Assembly: GCA_903839855.1 (NCBI GenBank) | Contig: CAIMEB010000088.1 | Coordinates: 1-33,442, forward strand | Direction: 5' to 3' | DNA: 33,442 nt | From: an uncultured Methylococcaceae bacterium | GTDB lineage: Bacteria; Pseudomonadota; Gammaproteobacteria; Methylococcales; Methylomonadaceae | Notes under the pieces: model-generated | Told to the model about the DNA's origin: nothing | Seen by the model: the letters and a program-made list of their open reading frames with translations, nothing else | The model's database searches: none | Part shown: positions 20,040-33,442 of the stretch, piece after piece | Layout: each line of letters begins with the position of its first letter | Position numbering within the stretch: the first letter of the stretch is position 1 | Made by a program: the position numbers and the translations under genes

Positions 20040-20071
20040 TTAATGGTTTAACGGTCTAACGATCTAACGAT
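20040..20071 (+). repeat. 8-bp tandem repeat, four copies
   Basis: Four consecutive octamers (ttaatggt, ttaacggt, ctaacgat, ctaacgat) fit the pattern YTAAYGRT. The block lies just before the 42-bp minisatellite and downstream of the tmpT start. Confidence 0.7.
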
Positions 20072-20088
20072 GAGTCCAACTTCCGAAA

Positions 20089-20340
20089 GCAAACGCTTCC
20101 AACCTTTGTCCGGTTGCTTCCGGTTTAAAAGCGATTGCCCCCGACCTTTTTACTCTTGCTTGCGGCTTTAAAGCAAACGCTTTCAACCGTTTTACTATTG
20201 CTTCTGCTACAAGAGCAAACGCTCTCAACCGTTTTACTGTTGCTTTTGCTCCGAGAGCAAACGCTCTCAACCGTTTTACTGTTGCTTCTGCTCTGAAAGC
20301 AAACGCTTCAAACCGTTTTATTATCGCTTTCAGTTCGAAA
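20089..20340 (-). repeat. 42-bp minisatellite, six units
   Basis: Units begin at 20089, 20131, 20173, 20215, 20257 and 20299, exactly 42 bases apart, with a partial seventh at 20341. The core gcaaacgct...caaccgttttact is best kept in units three to five. Read on the minus strand from an ATG at 20351 it would encode a 14-residue repeat of the type AEATVKRLRAFALG. Similar low-complexity frames can be spurious, and no ribosome site is clear, so it is listed as DNA repeat rather than protein. Confidence 0.85.
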
Positions 20341-20583
20341 GCAATAGACATGAATTCATTTCCTGATGTATCACCTGAGATGATGCTAAGAAATATAATA
20401 TTAATTAACTTACATAGTGTCAGAATAAAGGTCTATAGTGAGTTGACTTACGGTAAATCAGGCAAAACGACTATGTTCAAATCAAAGATTAGTTTCGAAT
20501 TGGCTAAGATAATATCATCAACCTAACCTTTGGCGTGATATTTAATTCGCGTCATAACGTATTCCTTTCATAAGGAGAATCTT

Positions 20584-21443: not shown

Positions 21444-21701
21444 ATGATATTACACATCACTAATGCCAAATATCTGCAAAATTATCAAGTACGGCTTAAA
21501 TTTAATGACGACGTAGAAGGTATAGTTGATTTAAGTAATGAGTTATGGGGATCTATGTTTGAACCGCTAAAAGATTTAAGCTTGTTCAGTCAAGTCAGAT
21601 TAGATTCTCAGTTGCATACGATTAGCTGGCCGAATGGTGCTGATTTAGCACCTGAATTTTTACATGAATTATTGCAGCAACAACAAGAAATCGAAACATG
21701 A
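21444..21701 (+). CDS. DUF2442 protein upstream of cas3
   Basis: 85 residues with the DUF2442 pattern: YQVRLKFNDDVEGIVDLS, then WGSMFEPLKD and ISWPNGADLAPEFLHE. DUF2442 proteins are small DNA-binding-like proteins often paired with DUF4160 toxins; no DUF4160 gene is adjacent here. The stop overlaps the cas3 start as ATGA, so cas3 translation is coupled to this gene. A regulator of cas3 is a possible role by position only. Upstream lie about 220 AT-rich bases with the presumed promoter, which I could not place with confidence. Confidence 0.85.
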   Translation: MILHITNAKYLQNYQVRLKFNDDVEGIVDLSNELWGSMFEPLKDLSLFSQVRLDSQLHTISWPNGADLAPEFLHELLQQQQEIET

Positions 21702-24439
21702 TCGAAAAGTTATATTATAAATATTGGGGCAAAGCGAGTTCAGATAATGAAAATGGAGCGGCTTATCATTTGTTGCCTTATCATTGCTTGGATGTGGCGG
21801 CGGTGGGTTGGCAATTACTCACGCCTGATAAACCACTGTGTCAACATTTAGCTAAGCAATTGGAAGTCGAACCCGAATGGTTGAGGCAACTATTTATATT
21901 TTGCTTGGCATTGCATGATTTGGGTAAGTTTTCTAATGCTTTTCAGGGGATACGCCAAGACTTATCAGACGAGTTAGTAAAAGCCAATCCCAGAATGTCT
22001 TATTCTGAAAAACACGATAGTTTAGGATTTTGCCTGTGGCAAGACATCATACAACCTAAATTTGATGATTTATTATTCAGTGATTCCAATGAAATTACTG
22101 GTCAGTCATGGTCAATTCTGTTGGAGCCTTGGTTAGAAATAGTAACGGGGCATCATGGAATGCCACCTAAAATTAATTTAAGAACTCAGGATTTCTTTGA
22201 GCTTGCTGATGAGCAGGCGGCAATGAAATTTGTACAGGAATCAATAATACTCTTTCTTACTAAGTTCGATCCTCAACCACTATTGGACAAGGCACTTAAA
22301 AAACGACTGAAACCGGTATCCTGGCAATTGGCAGGTGTGGCGGTGTTAGCCGATTGGTTGGGTTCCAATCAAGAGTATTTTACTTATCACGATCAACCTA
22401 CAGACTTAAACGTGTATTGGGATGAGACGGCTTTGGTAAAAGCTAAACAGGCTATTGGTGCTTTACCACACGCGGCTAGTGTTAATGTCTTTCAAACTAT
22501 CGAAAAACTGTTTCCTTTTATCCAAAAACCTACGCCGTTGCAGGATTATGCTATTAAAGAAATACTGACTGAGCAACCGCACCTATTTATTTTGGAGGAT
22601 GTCACAGGTGCCGGTAAAACTGAAGCGGCTTTGATATTAACTCAACGCTTGATGTCGAAAGGCTTAGCGGATGGTGTATATATTGCCTTACCTACCATGG
22701 CGACTGCCAATGCAATGTATAAAAGATTGAGCAAGGTATACAAACAGTTTTATCTTCCAGAGAGTCAACCGTCTTTAATTTTGGCGCATGGTGCGCGTGA
22801 ATTGTCCCAAGTTTTTCAGGATTCTGTAGTTTTATCTAAGCAAGCGAAAACAGACGGTGATTATTTGAATGGAAAAAATGAGGAAGATCAGGAATTAAGT
22901 GCAACAGCTTATTGTAATGCTTGGTTAGCTGATAGCCGAAAAAAAGCATTATTGGCCGATGTTGGGGTGGGTACTTTAGATCAGGCTTTGTTATCGGTGT
23001 TGCCTGCCCGCCATCAGTCTCTGCGTCTGTTGGGTTTAGGCCGTAAAGTGCTGTTGGTAGATGAGGTCCATGCTTACGATAGTTACATGCAAAAATTGTT
23101 GAATGCTTTGCTCGAAGCTCATGCCAGACAAGGGGGAAGTGTGATTTTATTATCGGCAACTTTGCCGCAAACCATGCGTGAAGGGCTAGTTAATGCTTTT
23201 TGTAAAGGATTAGGGCAGCAAGATGTGCCAGCACTTAATTATCCAGCACCTTATCCTTTAGCCACACATATACCCGCTGCTATTATTGAGCAGGCTATAG
23301 ATACCCGTGAAGCAGTCAAGCGTACCGTTAACATTCAACGCTTGAATCGCGAAGAAGACGTTATTGCACACATTAAGCAAGTTGTTACCAAAGGGCAATG
23401 TGTGTGCTGGATACGCAATACAGTCAAATCCGCGAGACAGTCATATCAGGATTTATTAGAAGCGGGCATTGATTCAAATCGACTTAGCCTCTTTCACAGT
23501 CGTTTTGCCATGATTGATCGTCAAACTATTGAGAATAGAACGCTGGAATATTTTGGCGATGGATCAACACCTGAGCATAGAAAAGGTCAGGTGTTGATAG
23601 CCACACAAGTGGTTGAGCAATCACTGGATTTGGATTTCGATGTGATGATTACTGATTTAGCGCCTATCGATTTAATCATACAACGCGCGGGGCGATTAAT
23701 GCGTCATATCCGAGACACACAAGGTAATCGGATTCGGGAAGAAGGCGCAAAAGACTTACGAGGTATTCCGGTGTTGTATTTATTTTCACCAAACCCGATA
23801 GAAGACATCGATATTAATTGGCTGAAACCCGATCATACTGGAACGCAGGCGGTTTATCAGCATATAGGACAGCTTTGGTTGACGGCGAAACTATTGGTGG
23901 CGAGCGGTCAATTTACTATGCCCGATGATGCGAGAACTTTAATTGAGGGGGTCTACTCAGAAGACGCTCAAGAAGAAATACCCGAAGTGTTATTAGATGC
24001 TTCCATTCAAGCGTTGAGTAAGTCTATGGTGCATAAAAGTATGGCGGACATGAATGTGCTTAAACTCAATAAAGGCTATACCCGCATGAGCGGTGATTGG
24101 GATGAGGAAACTAGAATACCGACCCGATTAACGGAAGAAGAAACTATCTCAGTAGCTTTGGCGATTTTAGAAAACGGTCAACTAAAACCCTACGCAAAGG
24201 TCGAATCGTATGCGTGGGCCATGAGTACCGTTAAATTACCTAACCGTGAATGGCAGAAAGTACAACAACACATACCAGGCAATTTAAAGGTTTTAATTGA
24301 AACACTTAAAAGTGAACAAAAATCTTTACGCTGGCTGGAGGTATTGCCGTTAGAAGCTGGACAGGTTATTTATTCAGCACAGCATGGGTTTGTTGGGCAA
24401 ATCCCCACAGTTGTGGGGAACGCTAAAGTTGCTTCATAA
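21698..24439 (+). CDS. cas3: CRISPR-associated helicase-nuclease Cas3 (type I-E)
   Basis: 913 residues, a full-length Cas3 with HD nuclease and superfamily 2 helicase. The HD motif is H73-D74 in ALHDLGKFSNAFQ; Walker A TGAGKT is at 303-308, DEVH at 455-458, and motif VI IIQRAGRLMRH follows VVEQSLDLDFDV. It is recruited by target-bound Cascade and degrades DNA. It is coupled to the DUF2442 gene by ATGA and separated from the Cascade operon by a 500-base regulatory region, so the two have separate promoters. The last 45 coding bases overlap, on the opposite strand, a CRISPR-repeat-like element (24395-24423), which fixes part of the C-terminal sequence QIPTVVGNA. Confidence 0.97.
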   Translation: MIEKLYYKYWGKASSDNENGAAYHLLPYHCLDVAAVGWQLLTPDKPLCQHLAKQLEVEPEWLRQLFIFCLALHDLGKFSNAFQGIRQDLSDELVKANPRMSYSEKHDSLGFCLWQDIIQPKFDDLLFSDSNEITGQSWSILLEPWLEIVTGHHGMPPKINLRTQDFFELADEQAAMKFVQESIILFLTKFDPQPLLDKALKKRLKPVSWQLAGVAVLADWLGSNQEYFTYHDQPTDLNVYWDETALVKAKQAIGALPHAASVNVFQTIEKLFPFIQKPTPLQDYAIKEILTEQPHLFILEDVTGAGKTEAALILTQRLMSKGLADGVYIALPTMATANAMYKRLSKVYKQFYLPESQPSLILAHGARELSQVFQDSVVLSKQAKTDGDYLNGKNEEDQELSATAYCNAWLADSRKKALLADVGVGTLDQALLSVLPARHQSLRLLGLGRKVLLVDEVHAYDSYMQKLLNALLEAHARQGGSVILLSATLPQTMREGLVNAFCKGLGQQDVPALNYPAPYPLATHIPAAIIEQAIDTREAVKRTVNIQRLNREEDVIAHIKQVVTKGQCVCWIRNTVKSARQSYQDLLEAGIDSNRLSLFHSRFAMIDRQTIENRTLEYFGDGSTPEHRKGQVLIATQVVEQSLDLDFDVMITDLAPIDLIIQRAGRLMRHIRDTQGNRIREEGAKDLRGIPVLYLFSPNPIEDIDINWLKPDHTGTQAVYQHIGQLWLTAKLLVASGQFTMPDDARTLIEGVYSEDAQEEIPEVLLDASIQALSKSMVHKSMADMNVLKLNKGYTRMSGDWDEETRIPTRLTEEETISVALAILENGQLKPYAKVESYAWAMSTVKLPNREWQKVQQHIPGNLKVLIETLKSEQKSLRWLEVLPLEAGQVIYSAQHGFVGQIPTVVGNAKVAS
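24395..24423 (-). repeat. Diverged CRISPR repeat 2 of the mini-array
   Basis: 22 of 29 positions match the array repeat. The stem CCCCAC/GTGGGG is identical, the loop is AACT, and the changes are concentrated in the last 8 bases (ATTTGCCC), which would belong to a following crRNA that does not exist. It lies entirely within the antisense of the cas3 coding end. Confidence 0.88.
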
Positions 24440-24484: not shown

Positions 24485-24488
24485 GCTT

Positions 24489-24516
24489 AGTATAGATAAT
24501 TTAAATTATTTGTAAA
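24489..24516 (-). promoter_or_regulatory. Promoter of the mini-CRISPR RNA
   Basis: On the minus strand, TTTACA (24516-24511) and TATACT (24494-24489) are 16 bases apart, each one base from the sigma-70 consensus. The predicted start at about 24482 falls on the first bases of the first repeat copy. The -35 box lies inside the site that the RNA itself is predicted to target. Confidence 0.7.
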
Positions 24517-24529
24517 GACATTGAAGCTT
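24495..24529 (-). promoter_or_regulatory. Predicted Cascade target of the mini-CRISPR guide, with AAG PAM
   Basis: On the minus strand an AAG (24529-24527), the preferred type I-E PAM, is followed by CTTCAATGTCTTTAC (24526-24512). The guide matches 13 of these 15 bases; the mismatches are at guide positions 6 and 12, which Cascade does not pair. The remaining 17 bases barely match, so the site should be bound but not licensed for cutting. The PAM shares a base with the -35 box of the downstream promoter. Confidence 0.8.
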
Positions 24530-24557
24530 TGACAAAAAATTAATTCCAAACTATTAT
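24529..24557 (+). promoter_or_regulatory. Sigma-70 promoter for small ORF, hicB-like gene and Cascade operon
   Basis: A perfect TTGACA (24529-24534) and TATTAT (24552-24557, one base from consensus) are separated by 17 bases. The start is expected at about 24564, 25 bases before the small ORF. It is the only strong promoter seen between cas3 and cas8e. Confidence 0.85.
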
Positions 24558-24588
24558 GGTATCTATATTCAGTAATAGGGCTTTTATC

Positions 24589-24699
24589 GTGGATCAAATT
24601 AAGGAAATTATCGATGCAATTAACTCTTTTTCACCAGCGCCAATGGCTGTTATTTGTTTGGCGTTAGTGCTTGCAATTATTTTGGCCTTGAAAATGTAG
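24589..24699 (+). CDS. 36-residue single-pass membrane peptide
   Basis: A GTG-started frame (GTG at 24589, AGGG eight bases before it) gives 36 residues: an amphipathic start VDQIKEIIDAINSF, then a hydrophobic segment MAVICLALVLAIILALKM that would cross the membrane once. It is the first frame after the strong promoter, with a leader of about 25 bases, and a weak bulged hairpin (24698-24719) begins at its stop. The size and layout are those of small hydrophobic type I-like toxins. In CreTA modules a toxin gene sits under a Cascade-repressed promoter exactly like this, so a CreT-like role is possible. The other possibility is a minor leader peptide of the cas operon. Coding status is unproven. 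Confidence 0.5.
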   Translation: MDQIKEIIDAINSFSPAPMAVICLALVLAIILALKM

Positions 24700-24766
24700 G
24701 TTCTTCATTTGAGAAACCTTAATTAACCAGAAATAATTCTTATATTTAAATACTTGGGAGCTACTA

Positions 24767-24943
24767 ATGAAACTTAAAGTAATTGTTCATGAAGCGGAAG
24801 AAGGCGGTTATTGGGCTGAAGTGCCTTCAATAACGGGTTGCGTTACACAAGGTGATACTTTTGATGAATTATTGAGCAATATTTATGAGGCGGTAGAAGG
24901 TTGTTTATCAGTTGATATTGATAAAGCAGTGGTAAACCCATGA
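24767..24943 (+). CDS. HicB-like antitoxin-domain protein, coupled to cas8e
   Basis: 58 residues forming a complete HicB N-terminal domain: MKLKVIVHEAEEGGYWAEVP, then GCVTQGDTFDELLSNIYEAVEG. The fold is RNase H-like; HicB proteins neutralise HicA RNA-cutting toxins. The C-terminal DNA-binding domain found in many HicBs is absent, and no hicA-like frame lies upstream or downstream, so this is an orphan. A gggag ribosome site precedes the ATG, and its stop overlaps the cas8e start as ATGA. It therefore belongs to the Cascade operon and may set cas8e translation. Its role there is unknown. Confidence 0.85.
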   Translation: MKLKVIVHEAEEGGYWAEVPSITGCVTQGDTFDELLSNIYEAVEGCLSVDIDKAVVNP

Positions 24944-26517
24944 ATTTGATAACTGACGACTGGATACCGGTTATCCGTCAAAATGGACAGTTGGACACTA
25001 TTACACCTTGGCAAATTGCCGAAGTTGATAATCCGGTTGTTGAGATCGTTGCACCCAGGCCAGATTTTCAGGGTGCTTTATACCAGTTGTTAATCGGTTT
25101 GTTGCAAACATGTTTTGCACCAGAAGATGAAGATCAATGGTTAGGGTATTGGGAAGAAATGCCTGAATTGAAAGAATTACAGGCGAGTTTAGAGAAGGTC
25201 GCATTTGCGTTTGAGTTGGATACCGTTGGAAGTCCAGCTTTTTTACAAGACTTTGATTTGCCCGACGGAGAAACTAAATCCATTTCAGCTTTATTGATCG
25301 AAGCGCCGGGTGGGAAGACACTTAAAGATAATCTTGATCACTTCATCAAACGCGATCGGGTGAATAAACTTTGCCCTAGTTGTGCCGCAACAGCTCTATT
25401 TACGCTGCAAACTAATGCACCCTCTGGAGGTGTTGGGCATCGTGTGGGACTTCGGGGCGGTGGGCCGTTAACAACCCTAATTGTTCCAAAATCTCTTAAA
25501 TCTACTTTATGGCAAAAACTTTGGTTGAATGTAATTAATCAAGAGGAACTTGAATCTGCTGAAAAAATTGATTCGAGCGTCTTTCCTTGGTTAGGAAAAA
25601 CTCGTATTTCTGATAAGGGGAAAATAACTTCCCCTAGTGATGTTCATCCAATACATGCGTATTGGGGAATGCCTCGTCGTATTCGTTTGACTAAAAAAAT
25701 TGAGAACTCCGAGTGCGATCTGTGCGGTAAACATTACAAGTTTTTATATCAAGCTTACAGAACTAAAAACTATGGCACGAATTACGAGGGTGCTTGGGTG
25801 CATCCTTTAACGCCTTATCGCTTCGATTCGAAAAAGGTTAAGCCACCATTATCATTCAAAGGTCAACAAGGTGGCCTAGGTTATCGGCATTGGCTAGGTC
25901 TTACTTTGCAAGATAACGATAACGGAGATAAAGCGTCACAAACTGTTCAGTTCTATAACCAAGGACGTGGTAAATGTTTACGGGATAAGGGTGCTGCTTC
26001 ACTTTGGTGTTTTGGCTACGATATGGACAATATGAAAGCAAGGTGTTGGTATGAATCAAAATTTCCAATCTATTATCTTAGCGAAATGCAACGTAATAAT
26101 CTGACTGATTGGGCTACTGAGTTGATTAATACGGCTAAAGAAACCGTCAAAATTCTTCGTGAAGAAGTGAAGTCAGCTTGGTTTAATCGTCCAAAAGATG
26201 CAAAAGGTGATATGACTCAAATTGATGCGCAATTTTGGCAAGCTACAGAAACGGATTTTTATCGATTACTGGAGCAACTAGCGATACTACCAGAAGACAC
26301 CAGAATGGCACCGAGTGAAATTTACGAAAGCTGGCATGATACACTTAGAAAACAGATGGTTCTTATTTTTGAAACAGCAACTTTGGCATCAACACCTGAA
26401 GATATGAATTTAAAACGGATTGTGAGTGCCCAAAAATCGTTACGCATTAAGTTTTATGGCAATAAAACCATCAAAGCACTTAAAACAAAAGCCAATCCAG
26501 AGGAGGTAGTGGGATGA
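24940..26517 (+). CDS. cas8e: Cascade large subunit Cas8e (Cse1/CasA)
   Basis: 525 residues, the usual size of Cse1. It starts MNLITDDWIPV, as family members do, and contains HRVGLRGGGPLTTL (about 169-182). Two cysteine pairs, C145/C148 and C259/C262, form the zinc-binding site. Cse1 recognises the PAM, opens the DNA and recruits Cas3. It is translated by ATGA coupling from the hicB-like gene and its own end overlaps cse2 by four bases. Confidence 0.96.
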   Translation: MNLITDDWIPVIRQNGQLDTITPWQIAEVDNPVVEIVAPRPDFQGALYQLLIGLLQTCFAPEDEDQWLGYWEEMPELKELQASLEKVAFAFELDTVGSPAFLQDFDLPDGETKSISALLIEAPGGKTLKDNLDHFIKRDRVNKLCPSCAATALFTLQTNAPSGGVGHRVGLRGGGPLTTLIVPKSLKSTLWQKLWLNVINQEELESAEKIDSSVFPWLGKTRISDKGKITSPSDVHPIHAYWGMPRRIRLTKKIENSECDLCGKHYKFLYQAYRTKNYGTNYEGAWVHPLTPYRFDSKKVKPPLSFKGQQGGLGYRHWLGLTLQDNDNGDKASQTVQFYNQGRGKCLRDKGAASLWCFGYDMDNMKARCWYESKFPIYYLSEMQRNNLTDWATELINTAKETVKILREEVKSAWFNRPKDAKGDMTQIDAQFWQATETDFYRLLEQLAILPEDTRMAPSEIYESWHDTLRKQMVLIFETATLASTPEDMNLKRIVSAQKSLRIKFYGNKTIKALKTKANPEEVVG

Positions 26518-27116
26518 GTGAAGATTATTATTTCTTAAATGCAGCAGAAATAAAAGCATTACAAAGTTGGCATACTTGGTTAGATGATAATCGCGGTGAT
26601 CGTGCCCGGTTGCGTCGCGCAGAAAGCCCAGAAGATATTCTATTGACGGATGCTTTTTTTCATTTTTTAAACAAGATGAATCAGGTTTCTCCTGACTGGT
26701 CTACCGCTAAACCAATGTTAATTAGCGCAAGTATTGCTGGTGTGCTGTCTCAAGTTAAAAGTAACAAACAAATCCCCAGCAAGTTATATAACAGCAAAGC
26801 CACCGAGGGAATGAAGAAATTAGCCAGTTTTGCTGAACAACTAGCCTCACCATTGGAAGGTAAAAGTAAGGCGCCAATGAGCGAATTACGTTTTCAACAA
26901 TTACAAAAAAGCCCAACTATTGAAGATTTTTATCGCCGGATTATCAGGGCTATTGGATTGTTGGGAGGTAATGTCAATATTATCTCATTAGCTAATGATA
27001 TTATTCACTGGCATAAAGAATTTGAACATCAAATTAATCATCATCAGCCTACCAATCGTCTAGCTGTGCGCTGGGCCACTGATTATTTCACCGCTTTACC
27101 TAAAAATTCTGATTAA
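26514..27116 (+). CDS. cse2: Cascade small subunit Cse2 (CasB)
   Basis: 200 residues, all helical. It has the Cse2 hallmarks DRARLRRAESPEDIL near the N-terminus and an alpha-helical C-terminal lobe ending WATDYFTAL. Two copies normally bind along the crRNA backbone and hold the displaced DNA strand. It overlaps cas8e by four bases and is followed by cas7e after nine. Confidence 0.94.
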   Translation: MSEDYYFLNAAEIKALQSWHTWLDDNRGDRARLRRAESPEDILLTDAFFHFLNKMNQVSPDWSTAKPMLISASIAGVLSQVKSNKQIPSKLYNSKATEGMKKLASFAEQLASPLEGKSKAPMSELRFQQLQKSPTIEDFYRRIIRAIGLLGGNVNIISLANDIIHWHKEFEHQINHHQPTNRLAVRWATDYFTALPKNSD

Positions 27117-27125
27117 GGAAAACAC

Positions 27126-28190
27126 ATGAGCCGCTTTATCCAATTGCATTTATTAACTGCTTATCCACCTGCTAATTTGAATCGTGATGATCAAGGAAGT
27201 CCAAAAACTGCCAAAATGGGAGGTTATGATCGATTAAGGGTTTCTTCGCAGTGTCTTAAAAGAACGTGGAGAACTTCAGATTTATTTCAAAGTGCGATGA
27301 GTAAGCATTTAGGTATCCGTACCAAATTATTAGGGCTTGATATTTATAATCAGTTGATCGCGGGTGGAACAAAGGAAAAGGATGCGAAAGAATGGACGAA
27401 AGCAATAGCGGGGATATTTGGGGCATTAAAAAAAGCAGAAAATAATAAACCTCTAGCCGATATTGAGATTGAACAATTGGTTCATGTCAGTCCTGCCGAA
27501 CAACAGGCAATTCAATTATTAGTTGAAAAGCTTATTACGGAGCAGCGAGCACCGGGCCTTGACGAACTTAAGTTGCTTCGGTTGAGTGAGCAAGCGGTTG
27601 ATATTGCCTTATTCGGTCGTATGTTAGCCTCCAGTCCCGGTTTTAATATCGAAGCTGCGTGCCAAGTTGCTCATGCCATTAGTGTTCATTCGGTAGTAAT
27701 TGAAGATGATTATTTTACTGCTGTCGATGATCTTAATAACGGTTTAGAAGATATGGGAGCCGCCCACATCGGTGAAACCCGTTTTGCTGCCGGTCTGTTT
27801 TATTCTTACATCTGTATTAACCGTGAATTGTTGGTTAAGAATTTGGATGGTAATGAAGCGTTGGCAAACAAAGCAATTCGCGCTTTAACCGAAGCCGCTG
27901 TAAAAGTGGCGCCTGAAGGTAAACAAAACAGTTTTGCGTCCCGCGCTTATGCCTCGTATGTACTAGCCGAAAAAGGTAATCAACAACCTAGGTCATTATC
28001 AATCGCCTATCTTAAACCGATTAACCATCGTGAGAATGAAGACTTTATCGCGGATTCTATTGCTGCGATTATTAAACAAAAAGATAGTTTTGATAAAGTC
28101 TATGGGGCTTGTGCCGATGAGCGCAGTGAATTAAACGTCCTTAAAGAAGAGGGGACTTTGGCTGAACTGTTGGATTTTGTTGGTCAATAA
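27126..28190 (+). CDS. cas7e: Cascade backbone subunit Cas7e (Cse4/CasC)
   Basis: 354 residues. The RAMP-like core is clear: IQLHLLTAYPPANLNRDD at the start, then RVSSQCLKRTWRTS, a serine/lysine-rich segment diagnostic of Cas7e. Six copies coat the crRNA; each thumb flips out every sixth guide base, which matters for the mini-CRISPR guide in this locus. The ribosome site is aagg, seven bases before the ATG. Confidence 0.97.
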   Translation: MSRFIQLHLLTAYPPANLNRDDQGSPKTAKMGGYDRLRVSSQCLKRTWRTSDLFQSAMSKHLGIRTKLLGLDIYNQLIAGGTKEKDAKEWTKAIAGIFGALKKAENNKPLADIEIEQLVHVSPAEQQAIQLLVEKLITEQRAPGLDELKLLRLSEQAVDIALFGRMLASSPGFNIEAACQVAHAISVHSVVIEDDYFTAVDDLNNGLEDMGAAHIGETRFAAGLFYSYICINRELLVKNLDGNEALANKAIRALTEAAVKVAPEGKQNSFASRAYASYVLAEKGNQQPRSLSIAYLKPINHRENEDFIADSIAAIIKQKDSFDKVYGACADERSELNVLKEEGTLAELLDFVGQ

Positions 28191-28198
28191 AGGGGAAC

Positions 28199-28981
28199 AT
28201 GATGGATGTTCTGGTATTTCGATTATACGGGCCGATGGCAAGTTGGGGTGAAATTGCGGTCGGTGAGAGTCGTCACTCGGCTAATTATCCCAGTAAGTCC
28301 GCCATTATAGGTTTGTTAGGGGCAGCGTTAGGTATTGCACGCGACGATGAAGAAACTCAGATACAACTACAACAAGGTTATTCGTTGGCTGTGGAATTAT
28401 GGACTGCTGGGAGTTTACTCCGTGATTATCATACGACACAAGTACCCGACTCAGTCGGTAAATTTACTTATCGTACGCGACGTGATGAATTAATTTTAGG
28501 TAGAGAGCGATTGGGGACTATTTTATCCAGTCGTGAATATCGTACTGATGCTTTTGCTTTGGTTGCTGTTCGTGCATTAACAGGTGCGCCTTTTGCTTTA
28601 ACGGCTATTCAGACTGCCTTATTAGAACCTAAATATCATTTGTATCTGGGACGTAAATCCTGCCCATTAGCCGCGCCTTTGCAACCCCAATTGATTATTG
28701 GAGCTGATAATTATCTCTTCGCGTTTAACGCCTATCAACATAAACCCATGCTACCGTCATCAATTACAACGGATGGTGGGTTGGCTAAACGTGATTATGA
28801 CTGGTTGGGTAGGCCGAATGATCGCCATTATTATTGGGAAGGTCTGCCAGAGGATTTTTCCGATAGCTTAGACTTAAGCAAACGGCAAACACGCACTCGG
28901 CATGATCAACCATTATCTCGTAAGCGTTGGCAGTTTATGCCTCGCCAAGAGCATTATTTATTTTGCTCGGGAGGAGCGTAA
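28199..28981 (+). CDS. cas5e: Cascade subunit Cas5e (CasD)
   Basis: 260 residues. The N-terminal LVFRLYGPMASWGEIAVGE and SANYPSKSAIIGLLGAALGI segments are characteristic of Cas5e, which caps the 5' handle of the crRNA. Two adjacent ATGs (28199 and 28202) could start it, after agggg. Its stop overlaps the cas6e start by one base. Confidence 0.96.
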   Translation: MMDVLVFRLYGPMASWGEIAVGESRHSANYPSKSAIIGLLGAALGIARDDEETQIQLQQGYSLAVELWTAGSLLRDYHTTQVPDSVGKFTYRTRRDELILGRERLGTILSSREYRTDAFALVAVRALTGAPFALTAIQTALLEPKYHLYLGRKSCPLAAPLQPQLIIGADNYLFAFNAYQHKPMLPSSITTDGGLAKRDYDWLGRPNDRHYYWEGLPEDFSDSLDLSKRQTRTRHDQPLSRKRWQFMPRQEHYLFCSGGA

Positions 28982-29856
28982 TGTATTTTTCTAGAGTTCG
29001 TATCCAACCCTCTATTTTCAAATCATCGCAATTAAGTAAGGTGCTGGAAGGTAATATTTACGGTATTCACCGCTTGTTATGGGGTTTATTTCCAGAACAA
29101 CAGCAACGGACTTTTTTATACCGTGAAGAAATTGCTCGTGAACAGTTGGACTCTTTATCTACCGCACGAGGTGAAGCAATTTATTATTTGGTATCAAAAA
29201 CTAAGCCCATCGAAAATGAGCTATTCAGTGTTGATTTTAAGGACTATCAACCACAATTGGAAGTCGGGCAACATTTAACATTTGAATGTCGTGTTAATCC
29301 GGTGGTGACACGATTAGGTAAAAAACACGATGTGGTCATGGATGCACAACAACAGTTTTTAAAACTATTGGTTAAAGAGCTTAATCTTGAAAACTATCTG
29401 CCAGATAAACCGGAAAAGAGTGCTTATAAAAAGTTATTGTTAGATAAAGGGGGGGAAGCATTTGTTCAGAGGCTTAAAGATAGACTTCAAGTCGATCCAT
29501 TATATGCTGAACGTCTGCATCAAACTTTTCAAAACGCTGATCTTCTGGAATGGGCTATAAAAGCCGATGTTGATAGGGCGCTTGAAAACTGGTTTAAAAG
29601 GCAGGGCGAACGATTAGGCTTTACATTACTGACTGATGATAATGGGCTAAGCAAACTGCAAAACAGCGCCTATCAATGGCATAGTTTATCAATCAAAGGC
29701 GGCAAGGGTGATAAATCGGGTTTTAGCTCTATTGATTTTACGGGTGAATTGCAAATTACGGATATACATAAATTCAAGGAAGCTTTATTTAATGGTATGG
29801 GGCGATCAAAAGCTTTTGGTTGTGGGTTGTTATTAATTCGACGAAGTCAGAAATAA
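28981..29856 (+). CDS. cas6e: CRISPR RNA endonuclease Cas6e (CasE)
   Basis: 291 residues from the ATG at 28981, which overlaps the cas5e stop; the frame is open upstream inside cas5e, but only this start gives the family N-terminus MYFSRVRI. The catalytic histidine is H30, with Y27 just before it, in YGIHRLLWGLFP; the glycine-rich GMGRSKAFGCGLL near the C-terminus is also typical. Cas6e cuts pre-crRNA 3' of each repeat hairpin, leaving the 8-nt handle AUGAACCG. The diverged repeats of the mini-array retain the hairpin it needs. Confidence 0.96.
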   Translation: MYFSRVRIQPSIFKSSQLSKVLEGNIYGIHRLLWGLFPEQQQRTFLYREEIAREQLDSLSTARGEAIYYLVSKTKPIENELFSVDFKDYQPQLEVGQHLTFECRVNPVVTRLGKKHDVVMDAQQQFLKLLVKELNLENYLPDKPEKSAYKKLLLDKGGEAFVQRLKDRLQVDPLYAERLHQTFQNADLLEWAIKADVDRALENWFKRQGERLGFTLLTDDNGLSKLQNSAYQWHSLSIKGGKGDKSGFSSIDFTGELQITDIHKFKEALFNGMGRSKAFGCGLLLIRRSQK

Positions 29857-29866
29857 AGGAATAGCG

Positions 29867-31049
<1,183 letters not shown>

Positions 31050-31149: not shown

Positions 31150-33442
31150 GTGTTCCCCACATCCGTGGGGATGAACCGCCAAAAGGCCGAGGCCAGTGAG
31201 TTAGTAAATGGTGTTCCCCACATCCGTGGGGATGAACCGTAGCCCCATTCCATTGATAAAAAGCAGGTGGAGTGTTCCCCACATCCGTGGGGATGAACCG
31301 TCCAAAATCTAAGCAAAACTCTTTGATTCCAAGTGTTCCCCACATCCGTGGGGATGAACCGACCATAATCGAATTACGCCGTAGAAACTATAAGTGTTCC
31401 CCACATCCGTGGGGATGAACCGACGCAGTTGATAAAATGAGGGCGACTTATCATGTGTTCCCCACATCCGTGGGGATGAACCGCGTTAAAAAATGCTGAT
31501 ACCTGGTCAAATGTTGTGTTCCCCACATCCGTGGGGATGAACCGTCATTAACAGATACTCGCAAAACAATAATTGAGTGTTCCCCACATCCGTGGGGATG
31601 AACCGCGAGTGCTTCAGTAGTTTTCTCAATCATTTCCGTGTTCCCCACATCCGTGGGGATGAACCGCAGATATAACATCGATCAGTTGATCATAAGAAGT
31701 GTTCCCCACATCCGTGGGGATGAACCGGTATCAATACGTGATTTAGCATGAGCAATCTGGTGTTCCCCACATCCGTGGGGATGAACCGTCAGGGCTATTA
31801 TCGATAGAGACGAGCTAGAAGTGTTCCCCACATCCGTGGGGATGAACCGCCTAGAAACGGGTAAAATTAACTGCTTAGTTGGTGTTCCCCACATCCGTGG
31901 GGATGAACCGGTGTAGGTGTTAGTGCTGCTACAGCAGCTATTGTGTTCCCCACATCCGTGGGGATGAACCGCCCTGCTATGAAACAAATCGGTGAGGTAT
32001 TAAGTGTTCCCCACATCCGTGGGGATGAACCGTAGCATTGATCGATTCTGACCACTTAGGTGCTGTGTTCCCCACATCCGTGGGGATGAACCGACGGCAT
32101 TTGTTAATGCGGTATTTGCTTTTTAGTGTTCCCCACATCCGTGGGGATGAACCGAAACTGAGCGGGAAATAATTGATTCAGTAGCTGTGTTCCCCACATC
32201 CGTGGGGATGAACCGACTCACCAATATCCCTTAGAGCACGAATGCCCGTGTTCCCCACATCCGTGGGGATGAACCGCACACAGCTGCATCAGGAACATGC
32301 GGCATTTGGTGTTCCCCACATCCGTGGGGATGAACCGTATCTGATTACCAGCCCTGACAACTTTTCGCCGTGTTCCCCACATCCGTGGGGATGAACCGGC
32401 GGTTGCCATTTCATGACCACGACCTGCCATGTGTTCCCCACATCCGTGGGGATGAACCGTGATTTCATTAGCTCTAACTGCACATCGTTGGGTGTTCCCC
32501 ACATCCGTGGGGATGAACCGCACGAATGCCAGCGCGATATTCTTTCTCAATAGTGTTCCCCACATCCGTGGGGATGAACCGCAAAGTTTTGGGTATCCAT
32601 CTAACGATTGTTGGTGTTCCCCACATCCGTGGGGATGAACCGTGGGCTACAGGTTCGATATTTTTGAAGTGGCCGTGTTCCCCACATCCGTGGGGATGAA
32701 CCGTAAATCGCTGCCCGTTTGCAGCCGTTATTATAGTGTTCCCCACATCCGTGGGGATGAACCGTTGATATGTTGATGAATGGAGTTATTGCTGATGTGT
32801 TCCCCACATCCGTGGGGATGAACCGCTAAACCAGTGATTAACTCGCTATCTGACATTGTGTTCCCCACATCCGTGGGGATGAACCGCTAATGTTATTTTG
32901 GCTCACAGAACGCAAATAGTGTTCCCCACATCCGTGGGGATGAACCGTTAGTTATATTCATGATAGATTAGGAACAACTGTGTTCCCCACATCCGTGGGG
33001 ATGAACCGGGAAGTGTCTATGCTTGTATGGTGAAGGATAGGTGTTCCCCACATCCGTGGGGATGAACCGCTTTACGGGCTTTAACCCATTTCCCATACTG
33101 CGTGTTCCCCACATCCGTGGGGATGAACCGCAAACTTAACTTTATGTCTAAAGATGATCTCCGTGTTCCCCACATCCGTGGGGATGAACCGAATTAGAGG
33201 CAATTGGCTATGCATGTATCGAAGTGTTCCCCACATCCGTGGGGATGAACCGACCTGAGTCTGGTGCGTCTATTAGTCCTACTGGTGTTCCCCACATCCG
33301 TGGGGATGAACCGCCGTCACATTATCAATATTAGTCGGTAAGTTTGTGTTCCCCACATCCGTGGGGATGAACCGCTATCAGGATTAGACTCAGCAGTAGC
33401 AAAGTTGTGTTCCCCACATCCGTGGGGATGAACCGTATCAAC
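31150..33442 (+). CRISPR. Type I-E CRISPR array, 38 repeats, continuing past the window
   Basis: 38 repeats of 29 bases start every 61 bases from 31150 to 33407, with 37 complete 32-base spacers; the 38th spacer is cut by the window edge at 33442. All repeats look identical. Each begins GTGTT, has the stem CCCCAC/GTGGGG with loop ATCC, and ends in the handle ATGAACCG, a close relative of the E. coli type I-E repeat. The leader and cas genes lie on the left, so the newest spacers are near 31179. The absence of repeat decay fits an active or recently active array, though the distal end is not visible. Confidence 0.99.

Follow-up and report, generated by a model that had tools for sequence, protein, structure and literature searches.

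The closest described relatives of the element analysed here are found among CreR, CreTA and CrePA, the primary paper on CreR reportedly being that of Liu et al. 2023 in Cell Host and Microbe. In CreR, a crRNA-like RNA (crRNA, CRISPR RNA; CRISPR, clustered regularly interspaced short palindromic repeats) with partial complementarity to a cas promoter makes Cascade a repressor, as stated for types I-B, I-E and V-A in the available text of three papers (PMC13131331, PMC12737573, PMC12948488). According to the accessible parts of the respective sources, the CreT of the Acinetobacter I-F system is an RNA toxin for which the product of a mini open reading frame (mini-ORF) is not needed (PMC10097628), CreP of CrePA is as a rule a KilA-N protein that acts on FtsZ (PMC12737573), and the type I toxin-antitoxin class comprises hydrophobic peptides (PMC12737573). 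Here we analyse the window, a forward-strand stretch of 33,442 nucleotides (nt) of contig CAIMEB010000088.1 from an uncultured Methylococcaceae bacterium (GCA_903839855.1). The gap between cas3 and cas8e of its type I-E locus holds a mini-CRISPR, known from the DNA alone, in which two diverged Cas6e-type repeats flank a 32-nt guide on the minus strand. The guide RNA of this mini-CRISPR very probably directs the cell's own Cascade to repress the cas operon, as judged from sequence comparison. Such autorepression is already known as CreR and is not new in kind; it is stated for type I-E in the available text of PMC13131331, so the element in the window is a further instance of known regulation. 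The features concerned are the following:

24484-24456, minus strand: first repeat of the mini-CRISPR (R1), CCGTTCCCAATTCAAATTGGGATGAACCG, identical to the array repeat at 19/29 positions
24455-24424, minus strand: guide, CTTCACTGTCTATACTTTATGAAGCAACTTTA, 32 nt
24423-24395, minus strand: second repeat (R2), stem retained, final 8 nt degenerate, identical to the array repeat at 22/29 positions
24526-24495, minus strand: protospacer, of which 24526-24512 pairs with the guide
24529-24527, minus strand: protospacer-adjacent motif (PAM) AAG, read directly
24529-24557, plus strand: predicted operon promoter TTGACA-17-TATTAT (-35 at 24529-24534, -10 at 24552-24557), no equal score in 50 shuffles
24516-24489, minus strand: likely promoter, predicted to serve the mini-CRISPR, TTTACA-16-TATACT, the -10 separated from R1 by four bases, score unequalled in 50 shuffles
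24589-24699, plus strand: ORF of a 36-residue microprotein with a single transmembrane segment and a GTG start, the first plausible ORF after the operon promoter

R1 shares the intact 8-nt handle ATGAACCG with the array repeat, and its stem is full but of different bases (CCCAAT/ATTGGG against CCCCAC/GTGGGG in the array repeat). Cascade flips out every sixth base of its guide, so that mismatches are tolerated at positions 6 and 12, and about 15 paired bases are too few for destruction by Cas3. The original prediction, made from the sequence alone, held that guide bases 1-15 match the minus strand at 24526-24512 except at these two positions, and direct reading confirmed both the match and its coordinates. 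Between the target, CTTCAATGTCTTTAC, and the guide there are mismatches at positions 6 and 12 alone, and all 13/13 pairing positions (1-5, 7-11 and 13-15) match. The AAG before the site and the one base that this PAM shares with the TTGACA -35 were equally found on reading, and the adjoining near-consensus promoter had been called rightly. As had also been claimed, the rest of the guide is unmatched: positions 16 and 17 are mismatched and the remainder lies near chance.

Dinucleotide shuffles of the gap (24486-24939), with AAG required, gave 13/13 pairing positions in 0/60,000 cases; none even reached 12 and the best was 11, which places an earlier hand estimate of about 1 in 100,000 for a chance match in the right order. 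We rejected a chance match on the strength of these shuffles. The next best AAG site for the guide within the window pairs at 10/13 positions, and none of the 37 array spacers has an AAG site in the gap at 9 or more of 10 seed bases.

To follow guide and target in relatives, we gathered 193 loci upstream of cas8e, 172 of which are distinct by their last 200 bases. Fourteen came from 61 genomes (the window's included), 80 were the best of 269 matches in named genomes, 46 were places in 237 family genomes, and 33 and 20 came from a class sample (377 genomes) and a phylum sample (396), respectively; the loci, numbered with an L below, are thus relatives by choice and no random sample. The last 1,200 bases of each were searched for a handle at 6/8 or better and then for a guide with an AAG target at 9/10 seed bases or better. 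This search yielded 52 matches in 50 loci; three shuffled sets together gave 12, or about 4 each. After removal of two stemless matches (L166 and a second match in L134), the set of repeat, guide and AAG target upstream of cas8e was present in 49/172 distinct loci with 40 distinct guides. Left out of the pair count were L112 (good pairing, PAM AAA), L155 (seed 8/10), L070 (handle 5/8), L089 (repeats, no target) and L010 (no AAG target). The set occurred in 6/33 of the fetched class-sample loci and 1/20 of the phylum-sample loci, and is therefore sparser beyond the neighbourhood.

Across the 40 guides, identity to the target was found in 39-40 at positions 1-5, 10 at position 6, 38-40 at positions 7-11 and 10 at position 12, followed by 38, 35, 31, 23 and 21 at positions 13-17, 11 at position 18 and 4-12 from position 20 on. 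Positions 1-5 and 7-11 were demanded by the search, while position 6 and those from 12 onward were free of its criteria. The flipped-out sixth bases of Cascade predict just this pattern, in which positions 6 and 12 drop to chance level between neighbours that match almost without exception. When guides were swapped, each found its target in its own locus (40/40), compared with 2/1,560 for the targets of other loci. Pairing is thus kept despite sequence change, as the original prediction had expected of relatives, with 40 distinct guides each facing its own AAG target; independent divergence of guide and target, named beforehand as the outcome that would speak against it, is the opposite of what we observed.

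Promoters were scored with an approximate sigma-70-like matrix for the 36 guides whose target lies on the guide's strand. The best operon promoter has a -35 that begins at the PAM in 18/36 (3.6 expected with the downstream sequence shuffled), in which case the CTT complementary to the PAM provides the TT of the -35. A -35 lying 11-13 bp beyond the PAM was seen in a further 10/36 (1.7 expected), and the two placements together account for 28/36 (5.4 expected). The promoter of the mini-CRISPR itself has a best -10 that stops two to six bases short of the first repeat in 16/36, given here as a raw count, and it beats shuffles at p 0.1 in 19/36. In the window, the predicted -35 of this promoter falls within the protospacer, which suggests that the mini-CRISPR probably limits itself. 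Taken together, coevolution and promoter placement support the earlier proposal that Cascade carrying this RNA would repress its own operon; the unit so repressed, however, would not simply be the cas8e side as proposed, the microprotein ORF coming first.

Five mini-CRISPRs (L068, L082, L091, L092 and L144) have short guides of about 22-23 nt, which still cover the 15-17 pairs used and possibly represent a shortened regulatory class. Within the window's guide, seed bases 1-5 (CTTCA) are complementary to bases 20-24 (TGAAG), which allows the two to pair. Folding energy is weak overall (p ≤0.05 in 9/40 guides and 5/37 array spacers), while 12/40 guides have a helix that begins within guide positions 1-3 and contains 5 or more Watson-Crick pairs, versus 2.4 expected from tail shuffles and 2.4 from tail swaps; the same test on the window's array spacers gave 2/37 versus 1.8 expected. 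The excess is gone when G-U pairs and 4 bp are allowed (28 versus 23.6, p 0.1). Several thresholds were tried, and the p-values of the hairpin are optimistic because some guides are related (the CTTC/GAAGC group). One may speculate that a regulator with its seed trapped in such a hairpin could compete poorly for Cascade, as would befit a sensor of crRNA supply.

In the microprotein behind the targeted promoter, a serine-proline turn connects an N-terminal helix to a single hydrophobic one. Most members of its family share the motif N-x-x-[ST]-P with a hydrophobic helix after it (alignment of 24). The structure model likewise predicts two helices, with a mean predicted local distance difference test (pLDDT) of 78.7 and a predicted template modelling score (pTM) of 0.38. 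In 28/49 loci, a small hydrophobic ORF lies between target and cas8e; the antisense strand gave 2 and shuffled sequence 2.7. The nonsynonymous rate (dN) is below the synonymous rate (dS) in 13/13 pairs with both defined (17 pairs compared), and six non-overlapping pairs carry 38, 21 and 83 substitutions at codon positions 1, 2 and 3, indicating that selection acts on the protein. We therefore have high confidence, on the basis of these comparisons, in predicting a real, selected protein-coding gene. Pfam gave no credible family for the peptides of the window, L013 and L070 (best E 0.083), NCBIfam no match for the window's microprotein, and PHROGs no credible family for seven small peptides, five of them of the microprotein family (best E 0.086). 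The literature search brought up no description of a membrane microprotein whose type I-E promoter is repressed by Cascade, a weak absence given that most subscription papers fell outside it. The microprotein appears to be a part of type I-E loci that has yet to be named.

A profile of the family matched 26/49 mini-CRISPR loci versus 2/123 other loci, an association biased upward by the training of the profile on mini-CRISPR loci. The two exceptions are L037 and L077, the latter without first repeat and guide and with a broken microprotein frame. In the 237 family genomes, the profile produced 24 matches at E ≤0.01, and the 19 below 1e-6 are all located no more than about 520 bp upstream of cas8e. 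Of the weak ones, one corresponds to the remnant gene of L077; the remaining four (E 0.003-0.009) are not beside cas8e and look spurious. In a Cas8e tree of 90 loci (quick, simple model, with long-branch warnings for L013, L014, L065 and L073), 13 independent supported contrasts in peptide presence are accompanied by a mini-CRISPR change in the same direction in about 11 and in the opposite direction in 0. Conversely, where the mini-CRISPR differs (22 contrasts), the peptide changes with it in about 12 cases and shows no difference in about 10. These contrasts suggest that the guard can exist without the peptide and the peptide hardly without the guard, an asymmetry expected of antitoxin and toxin.

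The locus has the order cas3, gap, cas8e, cse2, cas7, cas5, cas6e, cas1, cas2 and CRISPR array, with the full cas set present (Pfam, NCBIfam). Its further features are:

21698-24439, plus strand: cas3, the final codons of which cross R2 into the guide
24767-24943, plus strand: HicB-like antitoxin ORF of 58 amino acids, overlapping the cas8e start, without a hicA partner
24940-26517, plus strand: cas8e (cse1; PF09481, TIGR02547)
26514-31049, plus strand: cse2, cas7, cas5, cas6e, cas1 and cas2 (NCBIfam)
31150-33442, plus strand: main CRISPR array, at least 38 exact repeats and 37 spacers counted, reaching the window end

The 3' end of cas3 overlaps the mini-CRISPR at 24395-24439 (R2 and part of the guide). 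Judged by eye, the cas3 genes of L002, L004 and L010 end just short of the corresponding point, so that cas3 in the window seems to have lost its usual stop and thereby come to overlap the mini-CRISPR. Upstream, direct repeats with 42-bp spacing (20082-20344; five copies, four at 65-72% likeness to the first) sit inside a minus-strand ORF (20064-20351). A search of Rfam over the window gave no match at gathering scores.

The stretch before cas8e holds other genes as well. A hicB with hicA stands where the window has its HicB-like ORF, after the microprotein, in L018, L022, L024 and L025 (Pfam-tested on the L018 pair), and hicBA is retained in L015 and L016, where mini-CRISPR and microprotein were not found. 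In L131, a ParE-type gene (PF05016, E 6e-12) with no adjoining antitoxin gene, located about 313 to 34 bases upstream of cas8e, replaces the microprotein behind the promoter with the mini-CRISPR target. L014 carries a DUF3800 gene in the same slot (about 820 to 187 bases upstream of cas8e), and other small hydrophobic or basic ORFs occupy it in L006, L052, L063, L068, L070, L082, L083, L084 and L086. Those of L084 (Bowmanella dokdonensis) and L086 (an Aliidiomarina metagenome-assembled genome) are similar small basic ORFs that share KYGLKAWPI within 190 bases upstream of cas8e; the L084 one had no Pfam or PADLOC match. Four other cargo proteins were submitted to PADLOC, where the one from L131 weakly matched CARF-RelE (E 0.0019) and the one from L059 matched PDC entries (best E 5.2e-5).

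From these data, the following mechanism can be proposed. The mini-CRISPR would be transcribed leftward from the promoter at 24516-24489, and Cas6e would cut at both diverged repeats, giving a crRNA-like RNA that is loaded into type I-E Cascade. This complex would bind the AAG site between the back-to-back promoters through about 15 paired bases, too few for Cas3 destruction, and block the -35 of the operon promoter and probably also that of the mini-CRISPR promoter. Array crRNAs occupying Cascade, or an anti-CRISPR disabling it, would lift the block and release first the 36-residue microprotein, then the HicB-like gene, and then cas8e and the rest. The transcript held down in this way would open with the ORF of a conserved membrane microprotein, so control of Cas dosage may not be the circuit's only task. 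The microprotein might be a guarded membrane-active effector or toxin, that is a protein CreT, a role to which we give slightly less than an even chance; the circuit would then both restore Cascade and punish its loss. Extended to the whole locus, a CreR/CreTA hybrid is conceivable, and we hold it tentatively: one mini-crRNA, holding Cascade on the -35 between two divergent promoters, would set Cas dosage, limit its own synthesis and restrain a dedicated membrane toxin encoded by the leader gene of the Cascade operon. Loss of Cascade through mutation or an anti-CRISPR would first raise Cascade and, should this fall short, arrest the cell; the hairpin seed of part of the guides would confine the regulator to Cascade that the array crRNAs leave free, and in this way make it the sensor of crRNA supply.

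Several points weigh against this picture. The 49 mini-CRISPR loci include near relatives, and the repeat stems were used in detection, so that stem pairing is no independent evidence. Singly, only 17/36 operon promoters beat shuffles at p 0.1. On the side of the microprotein, the training of the profile has been mentioned, no mini-CRISPR can be recognised beside the intact microprotein of L037, and 23/49 mini-CRISPR loci are without the family, which implies that autorepression alone is enough to keep a mini-CRISPR. Finally, no strong family match lies away from cas8e, which is unusual for a toxin and equally fits a Cas accessory.

Such an accessory is at the centre of the alternative that survives best, a plain CreR whose mini-CRISPR sets Cas dosage only. 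The microprotein would then be co-regulated because it is located in the operon and would be harmless, tethering Cascade or Cas3 to the membrane, for example; this reading, too, deserves serious weight at a little below even odds, and we consider the harmless accessory and the guarded toxin as likely as each other. It gains from the position of all 19 strong family matches just upstream of cas8e, from compact loci such as L026 and L029, where the microprotein ends about 20 bp before cas8e, and from the frequency of mini-CRISPRs without a microprotein (the 23/49 above). It has to contend with the scarcity of the family in Cascade loci without a recognised mini-CRISPR (2/123, namely L037 and the frame-broken L077) and with the unrelated genes that the slot holds elsewhere, including the lone ParE-type gene of L131.

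A CreTA with an RNA toxin and an incidental ORF would follow the Acinetobacter I-F CreT, whose layout in the available text of PMC10097628 is the same: the ORF is read away from the guide gene and lies beyond the guide's target. It is improbable here given the excess at the third codon position (38, 21, 83), a dN well below dS and a protein motif maintained across divergent sequences. Still less probable is a mini-CRISPR that mainly targets other genes in trans, with the promoter site secondary. The PAM plus nine seed bases occur twice in the 3.4-Mb genome, at the operon promoter site and in a 257-residue ORF on contig C210, and this second site is what trans targeting could build on; about 0.4 such sites per genome are expected (hand estimate, equal base frequencies), and the promoter target recurs across loci. 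The C210 site was rejected as the main target, guide pairing there stopping at position 11. An ordinary two-repeat array whose spacer resembles the promoter by accident, for which the type I-E-like repeats and the 32-nt spacer would speak, is contradicted by the 0/60,000 shuffles and by guide-target coevolution over 40 distinct guides, and we rejected a conventional spacer on the latter ground as almost certainly wrong.

Under autorepression, the 40 natural guide-target pairs would show how Cascade pairs when it regulates and does not cut, namely over about 15 bases, with positions 6 and 12 free and the PAM often within the -35. If the microprotein is toxic, Cascade would be the antitoxin of the first gene of its own operon, uniting dosage control with the punishment of anti-CRISPRs, and type I-E would be addictive to the cell. 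Named methanotrophs carry the microprotein, among them the cultured Methylomonas sp. LW13 (L024), which has it together with the mini-CRISPR.

Compared with the known systems as their available text describes them, the locus resembles CreR in its mini-CRISPR beside the cas operon, in the partial guide match at a cas promoter next to a PAM and in pairing kept despite divergence, and differs in that some of the guides have a seed able to pair with bases of the guide itself. With CreTA it shares two degenerate repeats, the first of which keeps its handle, a guide that pairs at positions 1-5 and 7-11 by a PAM, and a small divergent gene (PMC8501985, PMC10097628, as far as accessible). CreT toxins are described there as RNAs, whereas the ORF here is under protein-level selection and its promoter appears to drive cas8e too. 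A non-cas gene directly behind the guide-targeted promoter, by which CreTA and CrePA are recognised, is present as the microprotein ORF ahead of cas8e, and its repression is predicted. Like CrePA, the locus would hold down a protein cargo by a crRNA-like guide, but this cargo is a 36-residue membrane helix ahead of the cas genes without a credible Pfam family, and no KilA-N protein. As in type I toxin-antitoxin systems, a short hydrophobic peptide, known here from genes alone, would be under RNA control, exerted transcriptionally via Cascade and not by antisense pairing to the mRNA. With a dedicated microprotein under a promoter that CreR is predicted to repress, the locus comes nearest to CreR fused with CreTA or CrePA.
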